Shown here: in pieces, positions 3,235-17,748 of the stretch
Position numbering within the stretch: position 1 is the stretch's first letter
Layout of the letters: the number at the start of each line of letters is the position of its first letter
Origin: an uncultured Pelagibacteraceae bacterium
GTDB taxonomy: Bacteria > Pseudomonadota > Alphaproteobacteria > Pelagibacterales > Pelagibacteraceae
DNA length: 33,718 nucleotides
Direction of reading: 5' to 3'
NCBI GenBank assembly: GCA_902523495.1
Contig: CABYZU010000011.1
Span: 1-33,718 of the forward strand
Made by a program: the position numbers and the translations under genes
Notes under the pieces: generated by a model
What the model saw: the letters and a program-made list of their open reading frames with translations, nothing else
Databases searched by the model: none
What the model was told of the DNA's origin: nothing

Positions 3235-4107
3235 ATGACAATAAATAAATTGGCAATTATTGGTGGCAGTGGCCTTTATGATGTTGAGGAGTTCAAAAAT
3301 CGAGAATTATTAGATTTAAATACTCCTTGGGGGAAACCCTCAGACCAAATTTTAAAAACCAACTACAATAATAAAGAAGTTTACTTTTTACCAAGACATG
3401 GAAGGGGTCACTTTATTTCACCGTCTAAAATAAATTTTAGAGCTAATATTGACGCTCTTAAACAATTGGGTGTAACAGATATTATATCAGTTTCAGCAGT
3501 TGGATCTTTAAAAGAGGATTTACCTCCTGGAAAATTTGTTATTGTTGATCAGTTTATTGACCGTACTTTCGCTAGAGAGAAAACATTTTTTGATGAGGAA
3601 ATTGTTGCTCACGTTTCTATGGCTCATCCAACATCAAATGGTTTGATGAACGCATGTGAAGAGGCGATAAAAAAAGAGAAAATTCAATATCAAAGAAATG
3701 GAACATATGTTGTTATGGAAGGACCTCAATTTTCAACATTAGCAGAATCAAATTTGTACAGATCTTGGAAAGCAGATGTAATTGGGATGACTAATATGCC
3801 AGAGGCAAAATTAGCAAGGGAAGCAGAAATAAGATACGCATCTGTTTCGATGGTTACCGATTATGATTGTTGGCATCCAGACCACGAAAATGTTGACGTT
3901 CAACAAGTTGTAAAAGTTTTGTTAGGTAATGCTGTTAAAGCAAAGAATATGATTAAAAATTTGATAGAAAATTTTGAAGATCACATTGATCCTAATGATC
4001 CAACCAATAATTGTTTAGATGTAGCTATAATTACTGCACCAGAAAAAAGAACGAAAAAAACTAAAGAAAAATTAAATACAGTAGCGGGAAGGATATTAAA
4101 AAAATGA
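3235..4107 (+). CDS. mtnP: S-methyl-5'-thioadenosine phosphorylase
   Basis: Phosphorolyses MTA to adenine and 5-methylthioribose-1-phosphate. The 290 residues fit the trimeric PNP/MTAP family. Seen: phosphate loop GGSGLY (10-15), LPRHGRGH (52-59), NFRANIDALK, MEGPQFST (161-168), GMTNMPEAKLAREAE (184-198) and VTDYDCWH (207-214). The last two regions, especially the DYD aspartates, mark MTA rather than inosine/guanosine preference. First gene of a rightward operon whose members overlap by ATGA; the next gene starts inside its last codon. Since it makes the sugar phosphate directly, no MtnK kinase is needed, and none is present. The 41-base AT-rich spacer to apt must hold two divergent promoters. 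Confidence 0.96.
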   Translation: MTINKLAIIGGSGLYDVEEFKNRELLDLNTPWGKPSDQILKTNYNNKEVYFLPRHGRGHFISPSKINFRANIDALKQLGVTDIISVSAVGSLKEDLPPGKFVIVDQFIDRTFAREKTFFDEEIVAHVSMAHPTSNGLMNACEEAIKKEKIQYQRNGTYVVMEGPQFSTLAESNLYRSWKADVIGMTNMPEAKLAREAEIRYASVSMVTDYDCWHPDHENVDVQQVVKVLLGNAVKAKNMIKNLIENFEDHIDPNDPTNNCLDVAIITAPEKRTKKTKEKLNTVAGRILKK

Positions 4108-5036
4108 AAAAACTATTATTAATTCTAATATTTTTAGCAGCTTCAAATACAGCTTACGCAAATGGAAAAATTTTAAAAAGTGGTTTTATTTCTAAATCAT
4201 CTTCGGTAAAAGAAAGTATTAATATTGATGACCCTAAAAATAAAATTATAATTATTTACAATCATGGTCAAAATTCAAATGATAAAGCCCACAAGAGTGA
4301 ATGTATTTGGGTAAATCAAATAAGAAATCAAGCTTCATTAGTTGATAAGGAAATTAATAATAAAAAAATTATGGTTTATAATTTCTGTTCAAATGATTTT
4401 GCAGGTGATATGTCATTAAAAAAACACTGGTGGAATTCTAAAACTCCTTATGTAGGTAAACACAAATTAGATAAAAGAGTTGAAAAAAATTTAGAATTAG
4501 TTGAAAAATTTATAAGTATAGGGGTTCCTAGAAAACAAATTTTCATATCAGGTCATTCATGCGGGGGTCTATTAACTTTAATGTTGTTATCAGCTCACCC
4601 TGAAAAAGTGGGTGGGGGCATATCATACATGCAAGCTTGTTTTGGTAAGCTTTCTAAAACTTATAAAGTAAAAAAAGTAGGCCCTGAAAAAGCATTAGAA
4701 AAATTTGCTAAAAAATATCCAGGCCCTGCTCAATTACGAGCAAAACAAATTAATAATATTAAAGAATCTGATAATGTTCCTGTTTTAGCTTTCACTCACC
4801 CCAAGGATAAATGGGAAGGACTGTTATCTGACTGGTTAGAGGAAGTTACAGGGGTCAAAAGAATTGTTATTTCTGAAGACTTTAAAATTAAAGGAAAATC
4901 CTGTGTTGTAAAAGGAGATGATTGGCAAGAAAATATTTCAGCTCGGAAAAATCCGGGTCATGAAATGAACCAAGGATTATGTTTTCAATACTATAATCCT
5001 GAAATTCTTAATTTTATTGCCTCAAGATTAAAATGA
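4104..5036 (+). CDS. Secreted alpha/beta-hydrolase-fold protein of unknown function
   Basis: Not assigned to a named family. The N-terminus MKKLLLILIFLAASNTAYA is a classical Sec signal peptide with cleavage likely after residue 19 (AYA/N), so the product should be periplasmic. The mature part looks like an alpha/beta hydrolase: IIIIYNHGQNSND (48-60) as first strand and oxyanion region, the nucleophile elbow SGHSCGG (149-155) with Ser152, and a late NPGHEMNQG (283-291) with a candidate catalytic His286. Six cysteines (67, 95, 153, 179, 267, 293) could form disulfides. It sits between mtnP and mtnA with ATGA overlaps at both ends, so it is co-translated with MTA-salvage enzymes although it acts in another compartment. 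Substrate unknown. Confidence 0.8.
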   Translation: MKKLLLILIFLAASNTAYANGKILKSGFISKSSSVKESINIDDPKNKIIIIYNHGQNSNDKAHKSECIWVNQIRNQASLVDKEINNKKIMVYNFCSNDFAGDMSLKKHWWNSKTPYVGKHKLDKRVEKNLELVEKFISIGVPRKQIFISGHSCGGLLTLMLLSAHPEKVGGGISYMQACFGKLSKTYKVKKVGPEKALEKFAKKYPGPAQLRAKQINNIKESDNVPVLAFTHPKDKWEGLLSDWLEEVTGVKRIVISEDFKIKGKSCVVKGDDWQENISARKNPGHEMNQGLCFQYYNPEILNFIASRLK

Positions 5037-6103
5037 AAATTAAAGGAAAAGAATATCGTACTATTTGGTTTGAAAATAATATTGTAAAAATTATTGATCA
5101 AACAAAACTTCCACATCAATTTATTATCAAAGACCTAATAACAGTTAAGGACTCAATAAATGCGATTAAGGTAATGGAAGTAAGAGGCGCACCTTTAATA
5201 GGGGCTACAGCAGCTTATGGAATGGTTTTAGCCATAATTGAAAATAATGACCAATCATTTTTAAAGAAATCTGCAGGAGATTTAATTAGTTCAAGACCAA
5301 CAGCAATAAATTTAAAGTGGGCTGTTGATAGAATGATGAATAAATTATCAGGTGTTAATAGCGATAAAATATTAGAAATAGCCTTGAATGAAGCAAAAGA
5401 AATTTGTGAGGAAGATGTAAAATTTTGTGAAAATATAGGATTAAATGGACTAAAAATTATTGAGGAAATTTATAATAAAAAAAAAGATACAGTTAATATA
5501 TTAACTCATTGTAATGCAGGTTGGCTTGCAACAATAAATTGGGGAACAGCAACTTCTCCAATTTATCATGCGCACAAAAAAGGAATTCCTGTTCATGTGT
5601 GGGCAGATGAAACCAGACCAAGAAATCAAGGAGCAAATCTAACCTCATTTGAATTAAATGAAGAAGGAGTTAATAACACAATCATTGCAGATAACACAGG
5701 TGGAATTTTAATGCAAAGAGGTGAGGTTGATATGTGTATTGTTGGAACAGATAGAACTTTAGCTAATGGAGATGTTTGTAATAAAGTTGGAACTTATCTT
5801 AAAGCATTAGCAGCACATGATAATAGTATCCCTTTTTATGTAGCACTACCAAGTTCAACAATTGATTGGAATATTAAAGATCGTAAAGATATACCAATTG
5901 AGGAAAGAAATTCAGATGAATTAACTCATATTGAAGGTTTAAATGAAAAAGGAGATATAAAGAAAATACAAATTTATCCAAAAAAAAGTAAAGCTATGAA
6001 TTTAGCTTTTGATGTAACTCCAGCAAAATATGTTACGGGATTAATTACCGAAAAAGGTGTGTGTGAAGCTTCAGAAAAAGGACTTAAAGAGTTATTTCAA
6101 TGA
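5033..6103 (+). CDS. mtnA: Methylthioribose-1-phosphate isomerase
   Basis: Isomerises 5-methylthioribose-1-phosphate to 5-methylthioribulose-1-phosphate. The 356 residues are typical of MtnA. Family signatures: MEVRGAPLIGATAAYG (48-63), LTHCNAGWLATINWGTA (157-173) with catalytic Cys160, ADETRPRNQGANLTSFEL (191-208), and GTDRTLANGDVCNKVGTY (238-255) with catalytic Asp240. Those two residue numbers equal the ones reported for Bacillus subtilis MtnA, so the enzyme should be active and is not an eIF2B-type regulator. ATGA overlaps join it to the secreted hydrolase upstream and the aldolase downstream. Confidence 0.97.
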   Translation: MKIKGKEYRTIWFENNIVKIIDQTKLPHQFIIKDLITVKDSINAIKVMEVRGAPLIGATAAYGMVLAIIENNDQSFLKKSAGDLISSRPTAINLKWAVDRMMNKLSGVNSDKILEIALNEAKEICEEDVKFCENIGLNGLKIIEEIYNKKKDTVNILTHCNAGWLATINWGTATSPIYHAHKKGIPVHVWADETRPRNQGANLTSFELNEEGVNNTIIADNTGGILMQRGEVDMCIVGTDRTLANGDVCNKVGTYLKALAAHDNSIPFYVALPSSTIDWNIKDRKDIPIEERNSDELTHIEGLNEKGDIKKIQIYPKKSKAMNLAFDVTPAKYVTGLITEKGVCEASEKGLKELFQ

Positions 6104-6753
6104 AGAATTTAAGGGAAAGAAATCAAATTATTGAATATTCGTTAAAATTAAATTCTACAAATCTTTCACCTCTTAGATCTGGCAATATATCGTTGAGAGG
6201 TATTGAGGATGATGCAGAGGGATACTTAATTACCCCATCAGGAAAAAAATATGAAACATTAAAACCTGAAGATATTGTTTTTATGGGTTTAAATGAAGAA
6301 GAAGAAAAAAACTTAACGAACAAACCTTCATCTGAATGGAGATTCCATCGAGATATTTATGTAAATAAAAAAGAAGCGCACGCCATTGTTCACGCTCATT
6401 CTCCACACGCAACAGCTGTATCTTCACATGGAAAACCTATTCCACCATTTCATTATATGATTGCTCTTGCAGGAGGAGATAACATTAAATGTGCTGAATA
6501 CGCTACTTTTGGAACAGAAGAATTATCTAAAAATGTTATCAAAGCTTTAGAAAATAGATATGCTTGTTTAATGTCTAATCACGGTCAAGTTGCTTTTGGA
6601 AAAAATTTAGAGGATGCATTTGAACTTGCACAAGAGATAGAAAATATTTGTCATCAATACACTATTGCTTTAAAATTAGGGCAACCTAAGATTCTTTCAT
6701 TTGAAGAAATGAAAAAAGTTTTAAATAAGGCTAAGAATTATAAAAAAGGGTAA
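6100..6753 (+). CDS. Class II (FucA-like) aldolase, probable methylthioribulose-1-phosphate aldolase
   Basis: Zinc-dependent class II aldolase of the FucA/AraD fold, 217 residues. Seen: SGNISLR (27-33), LITPSGKKYETL (43-54), SSEWRFHRDIY (77-87) with candidate catalytic Glu79, HAIVHAHSPHATA (94-106) with zinc ligands His98 and His100, and MSNHGQVAFG (158-167) with His161. The spacings Glu-19-His-2-His-61-His equal those of E. coli FucA (E73/H92/H94/H155). MtnB dehydratases share this fold, but no mtnC, mtnD or mtnE gene accompanies it. Placed directly after mtnA, the likeliest role is cleavage of 5-methylthioribulose-1-phosphate to DHAP and methylthioacetaldehyde, as in the DHAP shunt. The fold is near certain; the substrate is inferred from context. 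Confidence 0.85.
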   Translation: MKNLRERNQIIEYSLKLNSTNLSPLRSGNISLRGIEDDAEGYLITPSGKKYETLKPEDIVFMGLNEEEEKNLTNKPSSEWRFHRDIYVNKKEAHAIVHAHSPHATAVSSHGKPIPPFHYMIALAGGDNIKCAEYATFGTEELSKNVIKALENRYACLMSNHGQVAFGKNLEDAFELAQEIENICHQYTIALKLGQPKILSFEEMKKVLNKAKNYKKG

Positions 6754-6754
6754 G

Positions 6755-7795
6755 ATGATTAAAGTTGGGGAGCATATTACTTTAGATATTATCGGTACTA
6801 CAAAAGAGTACGATCCTTCAGTTTTTGAAAAAGTTATACATAAAATAGCAAAAGCAGCCAATGTTACAATTTTGAATATTTCAAAATATAAATTTGAACC
6901 TCAAGGTTTTACTATTTTAGCTTTATTAGCTGAAAGTCATATCAGTTTTCATACGTTTCCAGAAAATGGAATAATTAGTTTTGATTTTTTTACTTGCGGA
7001 AAAATAAGCCCATCAGTAGCAATTGATATTGTAAAAAAAGAATTTGAACATAAACGTATAGTTAAAAAAGAATTTAATAGAGATACTAGATCTCTTTACC
7101 GCGATATCTATAGTTCACCTGGTTTACAAAAATCATATGTTGTTAAGGAGGTTCTAGAAGATTTTAAATCAAAAGTTGGTCAACACATAGAAATTTTAGA
7201 ATTAGAACAATTTGGAACATCTCTATTTATTGATGGTGAGATACAAGTCGCAGCTACAGATGAACATTTATACAGCTCAACTTTTGTAGGAGCTGGCTTA
7301 AAATTAAACAAAAAAAAAGAAAGAGCAGCAATAATCGGTGGTGGTGATGGTGGTGTTGCTAGAGAATGTATATCAAAAAAGTTTAATTTTATAGATTGGT
7401 ATGAGTTAGATCCAGAAGTTGTTGAGGTTTGCAATAAACATCTTGGTGATATTGGAAAAAAAGCAACAGAAAAAAATTCTGTAAAGTGTATGTGGGGTGA
7501 TGCTTTTGAAAGTATCAAGACTATAGACGAAGATACATACGATCATATTTTTGTTGATTTGAATGATGACCAGTTTTGCATAGAACTTGCTTCTAAAAAT
7601 ATGGACTCTTTAGTAAGAATACTCAAACCTAAAGGAGTAATCACTGCACAAATTGGAAGTCAGGATAAAAAACCTCTTCAAGTTGAAAATTGGTTGAATG
7701 TATTCAATCATTATTTTGGAAACACAAATTTATCAAGAGTTTACATACCAAGTTTTGACTGCTCTTGGAATTTTTCCTCATCAATTAATCATTAA
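6755..7795 (+). CDS. Fused S-adenosylmethionine decarboxylase / aminopropyltransferase (SpeD-SpeE)
   Basis: A 346-residue fusion. Residues 1-120 are a class 1b SpeD: LAESHISFHTFPENG (58-72), with predicted self-cleavage between Glu60 and Ser61 giving the pyruvoyl group, plus His66 and Cys81. The 61/66/81 spacing equals Thermotoga maritima S63/H68/C83. Residues about 123-346 are a spermidine-synthase domain: GGGDGG (195-200), YELDPEV (216-222), WGDAF (247-251), and YDHIFVDLND (262-271) keeping the two aspartates (268, 271) matching human D173/D176. The usual YQE and PTYPSG positions read YSS (173-175) and PSFDCSW (332-338), so the amine acceptor may differ from putrescine. It produces MTA, the substrate of mtnP. 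It starts one base after the aldolase stop, as last gene of the operon. Confidence 0.93.
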   Translation: MIKVGEHITLDIIGTTKEYDPSVFEKVIHKIAKAANVTILNISKYKFEPQGFTILALLAESHISFHTFPENGIISFDFFTCGKISPSVAIDIVKKEFEHKRIVKKEFNRDTRSLYRDIYSSPGLQKSYVVKEVLEDFKSKVGQHIEILELEQFGTSLFIDGEIQVAATDEHLYSSTFVGAGLKLNKKKERAAIIGGGDGGVARECISKKFNFIDWYELDPEVVEVCNKHLGDIGKKATEKNSVKCMWGDAFESIKTIDEDTYDHIFVDLNDDQFCIELASKNMDSLVRILKPKGVITAQIGSQDKKPLQVENWLNVFNHYFGNTNLSRVYIPSFDCSWNFSSSINH

Positions 7796-15225: not shown

Positions 15226-15738
15226 ATGTTTTACGATTTAAAAGATAAAAAACCAAAAAACTCTGGCGAAAATTGGGTAGCGCCAAATGCAACTATAATA
15301 GGTGATGTTACCTTAGAAAAAAATTCTAGTATTTGGTTTAATGCAACTTTAAGAGGTGATGTAGAAAATATTCATATAGGTGAAGGTTCTAATGTTCAAG
15401 ATGGATGTGTTCTACATACAGACCCTGGATATCCGTTAAAGGTTGGAAAAAATGTTACAATAGGCCATATGGTTATGCTGCACGGTTGCACAATTGGAGA
15501 AAATAGTTTGATAGGAATTGGTGCTGTTATACTCAACAATGCAAAGATTGGAAAAAATTGTATTATTGGTGCTAAAGCTTTAGTTACGGAAAATAAAGAA
15601 ATACCTGACAACTCTTTAGTAATTGGTTCTCCTGGAAAAGTTGTGAGGGAACTCACTGAAGATGAGAAAAAAGCAATAACTAAAAATACAAAACACTATC
15701 AAGATAACTGGAAAAAGTACTCTAAATCAATTTTTTGA
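15226..15738 (+). CDS. Gamma-carbonic-anhydrase-like hexapeptide-repeat protein (YrdA/PaaY family)
   Basis: Left-handed beta-helix protein of 170 residues with hexapeptide repeats over about 20-130 (NATIIGDVTLEKNSSIWFNA, NVTIGHMVML, NSLIGIGAVI, NCIIGAKALV). The three zinc histidines of the family are at H64 (CVLHTD), H81 and H86 (IGHMVMLHG). The family includes gamma carbonic anhydrases and PaaY-type thioesterases; which activity applies cannot be read from sequence. It is the first gene of a rightward run with the BtuF-like gene, 4 bases downstream. Confidence 0.9.
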   Translation: MFYDLKDKKPKNSGENWVAPNATIIGDVTLEKNSSIWFNATLRGDVENIHIGEGSNVQDGCVLHTDPGYPLKVGKNVTIGHMVMLHGCTIGENSLIGIGAVILNNAKIGKNCIIGAKALVTENKEIPDNSLVIGSPGKVVRELTEDEKKAITKNTKHYQDNWKKYSKSIF

Positions 15739-15742
15739 TACT

Positions 15743-16672
15743 ATGGAAAAAATTGTTACATTAATCCCAAGTGCGACGGAGATCGTTACATTCTTAGGTA
15801 AAAAAAATTCAATTGTAGGAAGATCTCATGAGTGTGATTACCCAAAAGATTTAAACAAAATAAAAAAGCTGACTTCACCAAAAATAAATGTTGAAGGAAC
15901 AAGTGGAGAAATTCATAAAGAAATTACTAAAATTTTAGAAAATTCTTTATCTGTTTATAAAGTAGATGTAAATGAATTAAAGAAACTAAATCCAGATGTT
16001 GTTGTAACACAAGCACACTGTGAGGTATGTGCTGTTAGCTTTTCAAAAGTTGAAGAAATTGTCTTTAATCATCTCAATAAAAATACTAAAATAATATCTC
16101 TTCAACCCAACACTTTAAATGAAGTTTTTGATGATATTAAGAGAGTAGCTAAAGGCCTAAACATAGATGAAATAACTACAAAAAATTTGATTAAACCATT
16201 GGAAGAAAGGTTAGAGAGTATTAAAAGTAAAAGCTTAAAGAAAAAAAAAAGAACAATAGCATGTATAGAGTGGATAGATCCTTTGATGGTTGCGGGTAAT
16301 TGGATACCAGAAATGGTCAAAATATCTGGTGGTGAGGATATATTTGGAAAATCAGGGAAAGATTCACATTGGGTTAAATTTGATGAAATTCAAAAATACG
16401 ATCCAGAAGTTATAATTTTTTTACCGTGTGGGTATGATATTGAAAAAACCAAAAATGAAGTTGAAAATTTATTTAAAAAGCAAAATAAATGGAATGTGTT
16501 AAATGCATTCAAAAATAAAGAAATTTATATAGTTGACGGTAACCAATTTTTTAATAGACCTGGACCAAGATTATTAGAGTCTCTTGAGATTTTTGCAGAA
16601 ATCATTCATCCTGAATTATTCAATTTTAACCACAATCAGATTGGGTGGATAAATTTTTTTAATTCAAAATGA
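15743..16672 (+). CDS. BtuF-like helical-backbone metal/cobalamin-binding-fold protein without signal peptide
   Basis: A 309-residue protein of the ABC transporter class III binding-protein fold: IVTLIPSATEIVTFLGKKNSIVGRSHECDYP (4-34), LNPDVVVTQAHCEVCAV (85-101), then ACIEWIDPLMVAGNWIPEMVKISGG (173-197) and YDPEVIIFLPCGYD. It begins directly with MEKIVTLIPS and has no signal peptide or lipobox, so it should be cytoplasmic. Such short BtuF homologues are often annotated cobalamin-binding protein without proof. The C-E-V-C pair (residues about 96-99) could bind a metal. No BtuC/BtuD genes are nearby. Confidence 0.8.
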   Translation: MEKIVTLIPSATEIVTFLGKKNSIVGRSHECDYPKDLNKIKKLTSPKINVEGTSGEIHKEITKILENSLSVYKVDVNELKKLNPDVVVTQAHCEVCAVSFSKVEEIVFNHLNKNTKIISLQPNTLNEVFDDIKRVAKGLNIDEITTKNLIKPLEERLESIKSKSLKKKKRTIACIEWIDPLMVAGNWIPEMVKISGGEDIFGKSGKDSHWVKFDEIQKYDPEVIIFLPCGYDIEKTKNEVENLFKKQNKWNVLNAFKNKEIYIVDGNQFFNRPGPRLLESLEIFAEIIHPELFNFNHNQIGWINFFNSK

Positions 16673-16706
16673 AAAAAATTATTTTTATTAATTTTATTTT
16701 TAATTT

Positions 16707-17147
16707 ATGCCCACATATACAGTAACTAATTCAAATTTTAACATGTCACCTAAACAACAAAAGAACTTAGCAGAGGGTATTACCAAAGTTCATAATACAG
16801 TTACAGGAGCTAACACTTATTTTGCACAAGTAATATTTAATAAAACAAAAAAAAGTAATCATTTTATGGGCGGAAAAAGAGTTAAGGAGCCGTCTTTATT
16901 TTTACTTGGTCAAATTAGAGCAGGTCGATCAAAAAAGGTGAAAGATAAATTAATTACAGATTTAAAAAATGTATTGGTAAAAAATTCTAAATTAGATGAA
17001 ACCCAAGTTTGGGTTTACGTTAATGACCTTCCACCATCTCAAATGATCGAATATGGGGCTGTCTTACCAGAGTCAGGTAAAGAGAAACAGTGGTTTGCAA
17101 ATTTACCTATTAAATTAAAGAAAAAATTAGTGGCTATCGAAAAATAA
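16707..17147 (+). CDS. Tautomerase-superfamily protein, cis-3-chloroacrylic acid dehalogenase (cis-CaaD)/Cg10062-like
   Basis: A 146-residue protein with proline directly after the initiator Met. Numbering from that proline, it has Pro1, His28, Arg70, Arg73, Tyr103 and Glu114, the six catalytic residues reported for cis-CaaD and its homologue Cg10062, with identical spacing. The C-terminal region WVYVNDLPPSQMIEYGAVLP also looks like cis-CaaD, with WF about 15 residues further on. cis-CaaD hydrates cis-3-haloacrylate to malonate semialdehyde; Cg10062 also hydrates acetylenic acids. The true substrate here is unknown. It is followed convergently by a PNPOx-like gene and a 3-hydroxyisobutyrate-dehydrogenase-family gene. 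Family assignment is strong; activity is inference. Confidence 0.88.
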   Translation: MPTYTVTNSNFNMSPKQQKNLAEGITKVHNTVTGANTYFAQVIFNKTKKSNHFMGGKRVKEPSLFLLGQIRAGRSKKVKDKLITDLKNVLVKNSKLDETQVWVYVNDLPPSQMIEYGAVLPESGKEKQWFANLPIKLKKKLVAIEK

Positions 17148-17148
17148 T

Positions 17149-17748
17149 TTAAGGAACTAACCAATCATTCTTGTTTTTTTCTAAATTAAACTTAGCTCTT
17201 CTATGTCCTTTAGCAGCAAGATATAGCCATTCAACAGATTTAATTTTACATTTAATAACAGTAAAGTTTTTATAACCCTCTTCACTTTGTTCCATAGTAT
17301 AATCAAAATCTTCTAATTTGGATATCATTCCCGAAGTTGGATCATTTGATGTAGTCCCTGGAGGACTATCAGTTAAATAACAACGTCTGCTTATATGTTG
17401 AGTTTTTTTCCAAGACTCTTTTGTTATAGAATTTTGATTATTAACCTCACACTCTACTTTAACCCTTAGTTGTATCTTTTCTTCTTTATCGTAGAAAACT
17501 AAAGAGGCATTTTTATTATTTTTTAGTATATGCACTTTTGGAGATCTTAAATCAGTGTGAAACTGTAAGAGTTTACTTTCTCTGTCTGATTTACGTAAGA
17601 CAACTATTCTACCATCAACTTCATTTTGATTAGCGCAAATAAAAACTGGAATTCTAAATGGTGAATTTCTATTGGTCACAGCATCATCCAACATAGACCA
17701 ATATTTGTTTTGAATTTCCTCTAAATCTTCATAGTACGCTGGCTGCAT
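17149..17748 (-). CDS. Pyridoxamine 5'-phosphate oxidase-like FMN-binding protein
   Basis: A 199-residue split-barrel flavoprotein. The N-terminal segment has IQNKYWSMLDDAVTNRNSPFRIPVFICANQ, then GRIVVLRKSDRESKLLQFHTDLRSPKVHILKNNKNASLVFYDKEEKIQLRV, the usual FMN-phosphate and barrel region, and a C-terminal VEWLYLAAKGHRRAKF like the end of PNPOx domains. It belongs to the general PNPOx-like group rather than clear PdxH, so a role in vitamin B6 synthesis is not claimed. It lies 3 bases downstream of the 3-hydroxyisobutyrate-dehydrogenase-like gene on the same strand and converges on the tautomerase gene with 1 base between. Confidence 0.82.
   Translation of the reverse strand: MQPAYYEDLEEIQNKYWSMLDDAVTNRNSPFRIPVFICANQNEVDGRIVVLRKSDRESKLLQFHTDLRSPKVHILKNNKNASLVFYDKEEKIQLRVKVECEVNNQNSITKESWKKTQHISRRCYLTDSPPGTTSNDPTSGMISKLEDFDYTMEQSEEGYKNFTVIKCKIKSVEWLYLAAKGHRRAKFNLEKNKNDWLVP

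Follow-up and report, generated by a model that had tools for sequence, protein, structure and literature searches.

The best described relatives of the protein considered here are two characterised enzymes, cis-3-chloroacrylic acid dehalogenase (cis-CaaD) and Cg10062 (also called CgX) from Corynebacterium glutamicum. According to PMC5818174, Tyr103 and Glu114 are the residues that complete the hydratase machinery, and the same source gives the list of six catalytic residues used below, which also contains Pro1, His28, Arg70 and Arg73. That paper further reports that cis-CaaD activity is present in CgX and cis-CaaD and absent from Linker 1 and Fused 4-OT, and that phenylenolpyruvate tautomerase activity occurs in every enzyme tested along the path from 4-OT to cis-CaaD, with a stepwise drop toward the latter. 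For Cg10062, which has the full residue set, it describes cis-CaaD activity that is inefficient and not isomer-specific, and a function that is "unknown". Simulations of cis-CaaD in PMC11641302 give Thr34 special prominence, and the PDB includes a T34A mutant of this enzyme (9ng8). Within the open-licence PMC literature, no paper on a cis-CaaD-like protein from SAR11 was recognised; of three papers naming both a tautomerase and SAR11, PMC10286711 deals with an archaeal 4-oxalocrotonate tautomerase and the other two concern thiamin.

The window, that is, the whole stretch of 33,718 nucleotides that was analysed, belongs to a SAR11 genome of 872,558 bases in 41 contigs. It contains an intact open reading frame on the forward strand, with an ATG at 16707 and a stop codon at 17145-17147, whose features are as follows (residue numbers are those of cis-CaaD, counted after removal of the Met):

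16707..17147, forward strand: cis-CaaD-like tautomerase-superfamily protein, 146 aa (145 without the Met), assigned from the ORF, Pfam and phmmer against the PDB
16710..16712, forward strand: codon of Pro1, the catalytic N-terminal proline, found in 63/63 SAR11 sequences
16791..16793, forward strand: codon of His28, found in 63/63 SAR11 sequences
16809..16823, forward strand: loop Ala34-Asn35-Thr36-Tyr37-Phe38, with Ala34 and Phe38 in 63/63 SAR11 sequences (Thr34 and Leu38 in cis-CaaD)
16917..16919, forward strand: codon of Arg70, carboxylate binding by analogy, found in 63/63 SAR11 sequences
16926..16928, forward strand: codon of Arg73, carboxylate binding by analogy, found in 63/63 SAR11 sequences
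17016..17018, forward strand: codon of Tyr103, which sets the group apart from Linker-1-like relatives, found in 63/63 SAR11 sequences
17049..17051, forward strand: codon of Glu114, general base by analogy, found in 63/63 SAR11 sequences

All six residues that the sequence-only reading had located at cis-CaaD positions are thus seen in the window ORF. The protein matches the Pfam profiles Tautomerase_3 (PF14832, E 4.3e-12) and PF01361 (E 1.2e-9), and the MSAD profile Tautomerase_2 (PF14552) is absent among its Pfam matches at E 0.001. In a phmmer search of PDB sequences the best match is Cg10062 (3n4g, E 9.2e-26), and N1 (7m58, titled as a cis-CaaD family member, E 2.3e-23) and cis-CaaD (2flt, E 1.7e-22) are also found; by BLASTP, identity is 33.3% over 144 aa to Cg10062 and 34.1% over 132 aa to cis-CaaD. 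On these scores the homology to both enzymes is far above chance. The predicted monomer is a modest model (pLDDT 64, pTM 0.58) built from 37 SAR11 sequences, with an E-H-E ... E-H-E arrangement followed by C-terminal helices, which fits a fused double beta-alpha-beta chain of about 145 residues. Its 11 best fold matches in the PDB by Foldseek are Cg10062 and cis-CaaD entries (full-length TM about 0.6, rmsd about 9 A), several matched entries being titled as intermediates of acetylenecarboxylic acid hydration; N1 is a fold match as well.

Cg10062 (3n4g/7ms0), the best PDB match of the SAR11 protein by both sequence and fold, has the same six residues, the same length, Ala34 and Ile69, but differs in overall sequence (33% identity), in having Leu38 and Pro35 instead of Phe38 and Asn35, and in lying on a branch of its own with a Methylobacterium homologue. 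In cis-CaaD the six residues, the fold, Gly33, Ala39, Gln40 and Trp101 are shared, whereas identity is 34%, Thr34, Gln35, Leu38 and His69 take the places of Ala34, Asn35, Phe38 and Ile69, and the founder sequence nests with Burkholderiales plasmid homologues. The nearest proteins by BLAST outside SAR11 (36-47%) are plasmid-borne cis-CaaD-like proteins of Caballeronia, Paraburkholderia, Cupriavidus, Microvirga and Methylobacterium, together with three from Pseudomonadota (L166, L184, L186); these share Ala34, Phe38 and the six residues with SAR11, which is set apart from them by Asn35 and by forming its own clade. Linker 1 (Ps01740, 5uif) and its relatives have Pro1, His28, both arginines and an equivalent of Glu114, but lack Tyr103.

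Phylogenetic placement was obtained from a tree of 54 sequences (LG+G4), in which SAR11 was thinned to 28 sequences at 90% identity and supports, given as SH-aLRT/ultrafast bootstrap, are taken as splits of an unrooted tree. The tree excludes the homologues L202 (altered end) and L203 (frameshift), and likewise L164-L165, L174-L183, L185 and L192-L194, which represent other Tautomerase_3 branches or are partial or interrupted. A subgroup of 46 sequences, including cis-CaaD, Cg10062 and SAR11, is separated from eight Linker-1-like sequences at 98.8/100. Within it, one clade (97.3/99) unites the 28 SAR11 representatives with L187 and L188, two Pseudomonadota sequences lacking Pro1; SAR11 alone is not a split, because these two nest inside the clade, on a long branch and with weak support (60.3/47). 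A Microvirga/L184 pair stands next to this clade (63.3/84). The cis-CaaD founder falls in an eight-sequence branch with Burkholderiales plasmid homologues and L186 (86.3/94), with SAR11 outside it, and the SAR11 and cis-CaaD sides unite at 88.6/91 to the exclusion of L190 and of the pair formed by Cg10062 and a Methylobacterium sequence (86.5/97), so that SAR11 is not grouped directly with Cg10062. By this tree, the SAR11 protein is a separate clade inside the cis-CaaD-like subgroup, somewhat closer to the cis-CaaD branch than to Cg10062. The cis-CaaD-type membership claimed from the letters alone is therefore borne out, as the window protein lies inside the subgroup, on its own branch and not far from the cis-CaaD clade. 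Several homologues depart from the usual gene form: L187 and L188, as well as L209 and L210, start with Met-Ala and lack Pro1 while keeping the other five catalytic residues (Pseudomonadota, 42% identity to the SAR11 protein); L185 is interrupted by one in-frame TAG; and L203, a Paraburkholderia plasmid copy, carries an apparent frameshift.

Conservation was followed in 63 SAR11 sequences (loci L001-L063, 60 distinct, L001 being the window itself), all of which keep the six catalytic residues together with Ala34, Phe38, Gly72 and Tyr115. The gene is under purifying selection, with a median pairwise Nei-Gojobori dN/dS of 0.084 (189 of 190 pairs from 20 sequences). Outside SAR11, all six residues occur in 16 of 18 aligned members of the subgroup, Cg10062 among them, the exceptions being the Pro1-less L187 and L188, and in none of eight Linker-1-like relatives, in which Tyr103 is missing. 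The six residues mark the cis-CaaD-like subgroup and not dehalogenase activity, because they are also present in those 16 non-SAR11 members. At three positions close to the active site, Ala34, Phe38 and Ile69 are found in 28/28 SAR11 representatives, as against Thr34, Leu38 and His69 in the founder cis-CaaD (a combination chosen as a marker in this analysis, with no published definition) and Ala34, Leu38 and Ile69 in Cg10062. Of the 18 subgroup members outside SAR11, 16 share Phe38, the two exceptions being the characterised enzymes cis-CaaD and Cg10062, and the SAR11 pocket may therefore favour a different substrate. Asn35 is found in 28/28 SAR11 representatives and in 1/18 other members.

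Regarding its distribution, the tautomerase is a common accessory gene of SAR11 and not a contamination, because it is seen in many SAR11 genomes. Carriers number 19 among 101 genomes sampled from the genus (about one in five), 64 of 247 from the family, spread over 5 of 14 genera, and 44 of 247 in a sample of the order that overlaps the others; the counts for the class (14/337) and the phylum (18/349) take in other branches of the Pfam family. Every sample includes the source genome itself. Among genomes at least 90% complete, the gene is present in 2/16 of the genus and 24/102 of the family. In a genome collection where 215 loci encode a relative, of which 80 were kept, the named relatives are all titled Pelagibacteraceae or Pelagibacterales. 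The expectation that such an enzyme would be out of place in a streamlined ocean bacterium was thus only half right. A phage or viral origin was considered and rejected, with no match in 50,697 phage records and 88 pattern hits on viral contigs that all failed tblastn.

The gene neighbourhood was examined in 164 SAR11 locus records, which include the window and some duplicate records of the same genome. In the window, the gene is flanked by the following:

15226..15738, forward strand: gamma-carbonic-anhydrase/PaaY-like gene (gammaCA), left border of a variable slot (NF050158, 190 bits, below the cut-off of 250)
15743..16672, forward strand: BtuF-like substrate-binding protein, an insert beside the tautomerase (PF01497, E 1.5e-14)
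17149..17748, reverse strand: PPOX-type FMN protein, right border of the variable slot (PF12766; TIGR04026 below cut-off)

Of all the records, the window, its copy L001 and the locus L085 are the only ones in which the BtuF-like gene adjoins the tautomerase. The commonest context, in 51 of the 164 records, has the gammaCA-like gene upstream and the PPOX-like gene downstream on the opposite strand. A search of 22 genomes from this genus that lack the tautomerase gave 21 gammaCA loci: both border genes abut directly in five, the PPOX gene lies 0.3-1.2 kb away in four, and it was not seen within 1.5 kb in 12. Immediate neighbours are of many types (112 clusters) and include elsewhere a fabI-like gene (by eye), an SSS symporter (by profile, below cut-off) with an ABC ATPase (by eye) and, in genus g12, an SDR with DUF1330. 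The latter was discarded as a clue, being adjacent or near in nine records, one of them or more in a second genus, yet present in 94 of 101 genomes and hence uninformative. Among the profile-annotated neighbours, a minority of the 112 clusters, no gene linked to haloacrylates, alkynes or dehalogenation was recognised, and no annotated neighbour recurs across lineages so as to name a pathway, ExaC with DUF779 and a 2-keto-4-pentenoate-hydratase-like gene being partial exceptions.

In genus g4, 20 locus records from 17 genomes place the tautomerase between mtnP and mtnA, with an upstream gap of 4-18 bp; by ORF call it overlaps mtnA in 15 of the 20. Since mtnP and mtnA adjoin each other directly in 14 of 22 loci (30 genomes searched), the tautomerase here, too, resembles a single gene inserted where two operon genes meet. 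It occupies the slot in 2 of the 22, and the apparent 5'-methylthioadenosine (MTA) salvage operon was not accepted as strong evidence of a functional link. Other sequence is found between or beside both genes in L268, L270, L274 and L280; in the g4 carrier G174 the mtnP/mtnA pair is intact and the tautomerase is elsewhere; and no mtnA match at E 1e-50 was obtained in 6 of 20 carriers, including G188, a genome that is 55% complete. Taken together, the tautomerase looks like a single-gene cassette at several sites. The window has its own MTA salvage cluster (3235-7795), made up of mtnP (3235-4107), mtnA (5033-6103), a class II aldolase (6100-6753) and a fusion of AdoMet decarboxylase and spermidine synthase (6755-7795). 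Its mtnP and mtnA are separated by a gene for a protein of 310 aa (4104-5036) whose start, by eye, resembles a signal peptide and whose match to Abhydrolase_2 is below threshold; in the 14 of 22 loci with mtnP and mtnA adjoining, this protein is missing from that position. The junction, like that of gammaCA/PPOX (15739-17148) some 10 kb away in the window, has the look of a slot gaining and losing single genes in SAR11, among them the tautomerase, abhydrolase-like proteins and others (L064, L276, L278, L268, L270, L274, L280, L254).

An association with ExaC and DUF779 is suggestive. Downstream neighbours of the tautomerase include ExaC acetaldehyde dehydrogenase in 13 of 164 records, accompanied by DUF779 in ten of them, and the gap would be about 300 bp if ExaC starts at an internal Met. 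DUF779 is present in 13 of 19 tautomerase carriers versus 21 of 82 non-carriers (Fisher p 0.0008, with no correction for ancestry), often on another contig than the tautomerase, as in the source genome (C13 versus C11). The pair also stands beside the plasmid homologue of Cupriavidus oxalaticus (L197), the only one of 19 non-SAR11 loci to have it; among ten records of plasmid homologues, five of them without annotated features in the stretch, this pair was the sole exception to the lack of a common neighbourhood gene. Downstream of the tautomerase, ExaC is followed by DUF779 and an opposite-strand GYD-domain gene in L134, L142, L145, L152, L156-L159, L161 and L163.

By analogy with the two characterised enzymes, the SAR11 gene may encode a cofactor-independent hydratase of the cis-CaaD/Cg10062 type acting on a small unsaturated carboxylic acid, a tentative reading to which we give a probability of roughly 0.45. 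The roles of the residues are presumably those of the characterised enzymes. The enzyme would be a homotrimer of fused beta-alpha-beta units. Its substrate, a small activated acid with alpha,beta-unsaturation (acetylenic, allenic or enoic), would be bound through the carboxylate by Arg70, Arg73 and His28; a water molecule activated by Glu114 and Tyr103 would then attack C-3, and C-2 would receive a proton from the cationic Pro1. Malonate semialdehyde or a close beta-oxo acid would be the product, which MmsA can convert to acetyl-CoA, and SAR11 would carry the gene as an optional scavenging or detoxifying function. MmsA (TIGR01722) scores 702.9 bits in the source genome, above the cut-off, and exceeds it in 35 of 39 SAR11 genomes, comprising 25 of 29 carriers (the others being G311, G315, G118 and G148) and all 10 non-carriers. 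Being equally present in genomes without the tautomerase, MmsA is permissive for this route and shows no link to the gene. MSAD (PF14552) reaches its cut-off in 0 of the 39. The hydratase reading is backed by the six residues, purifying selection, the grouping with cis-CaaD and Cg10062 apart from the Linker-1-like sequences, the fold matches and the presence of MmsA. Against it count the contexts examined, in which no substrate-specific partner gene was recognised, Phe38 in place of Leu38, and the phenylenolpyruvate activity that PMC5818174 reports for all the linker-path enzymes tested.

This last activity also gives weight to the main and serious rival, which we consider less likely: that the protein is a keto-enol tautomerase, in which Pro1 transfers a proton within the enol form of a 2-oxo acid and the hydratase residues, retained by inheritance, serve as a scaffold for carboxylate binding. 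A 2-keto-4-pentenoate-hydratase-like gene that lies 8-23 bp downstream of the tautomerase, or of an intervening DUF1330 gene, in 5 of 164 records would suit such a function, but its best profile, HpaH, gives 76 bits against a cut-off of 352, and the slot accepts many unrelated genes. Moreover, Tyr103 and Glu114, which complete the hydratase machinery, are invariant in the SAR11 set, and phenylenolpyruvate activity declines along the path toward cis-CaaD (PMC5818174).

The remaining active alternatives are special cases of the hydratase reading with a named substrate. Taken jointly, they would make the SAR11 clade a hydrolytic carbon-heteroatom lyase for acrylates that occur naturally in seawater and carry a 3-substituent, whether a halogen or, in 3-(methylthio)acrylate, a methylthio group; this is unlikely. 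The first of them, in which the protein serves physiologically as a cis-3-haloacrylate dehalogenase for 3-bromo- or 3-chloroacrylates of the sea, is rather improbable. It would agree with the presence of all six cis-CaaD residues, with a tree that puts SAR11 closer to the branch of the cis-CaaD founder than to Cg10062 (88.6/91) and with the malonate semialdehyde route through MmsA; however, residues 34, 38 and 69 are unlike those of cis-CaaD, Cg10062 dehalogenates only inefficiently with the same six residues (PMC5818174), and the profile-annotated neighbours, a minority of clusters, include no recognised dehalogenation-linked gene. No finding made here favours haloacrylate dehalogenation over other substrates. 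Of the initial proposal, the subgroup placement and the full hydratase residue set, under purifying selection, are supported, and the dehalogenase activity is left unsupported, Thr34, Leu38 and His69 being absent.

The second special case, very improbable, is the removal of methanethiol from free 3-(methylthio)acrylate, in which addition of water and loss of CH3SH would leave malonate semialdehyde, as a sulfur counterpart of the cis-CaaD reaction. PMC3660561 describes an equivalent hydration by DmdD on the CoA ester, giving malonate semialdehyde, acetaldehyde and methanethiol, and PMC5069961 states that Ca. Pelagibacter ubique produces methanethiol and that its genome has no DmdD orthologue. 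The pathway intermediate is, however, the CoA ester, which a carboxylate-binding site should not take. Two genomic contexts point in the same direction as the DmdD precedent, each with its counterpart: the position between mtnP and mtnA is found in one genus (20 locus records), but is cassette-like given that both genes abut in 14 of 22 loci, and 6 of 20 carriers have no mtnA match; and a DMSP-demethylase-like GcvT-family gene of L057 (3022-4164, reverse strand; NF009133, 376 bits against a cut-off of 410), 48 bp downstream on the same strand as the tautomerase, represents an adjacency to a DmdA-like gene that was seen once. Finally, a decaying or catalytically dead relative, suggested by the patchy presence and by the Pro1-less non-SAR11 sequences L187 and L188, is hardly credible for an intact ORF with six residues in 63/63 sequences and a dN/dS of 0.08.

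A selected and conserved clade of this kind in abundant ocean bacteria represents a natural setting in which the substrate of a cis-CaaD-like enzyme should exist, and offers a ready panel of proteins for assays. Were the enzyme a 3-(methylthio)acrylate lyase, it would provide a cofactor-free release of methanethiol in organisms that make this compound without DmdD. If the substrate is a haloacrylate, an alkynoate or methylthioacrylate, the surface ocean would have, in the SAR11 clade, a sink for it that had escaped notice.
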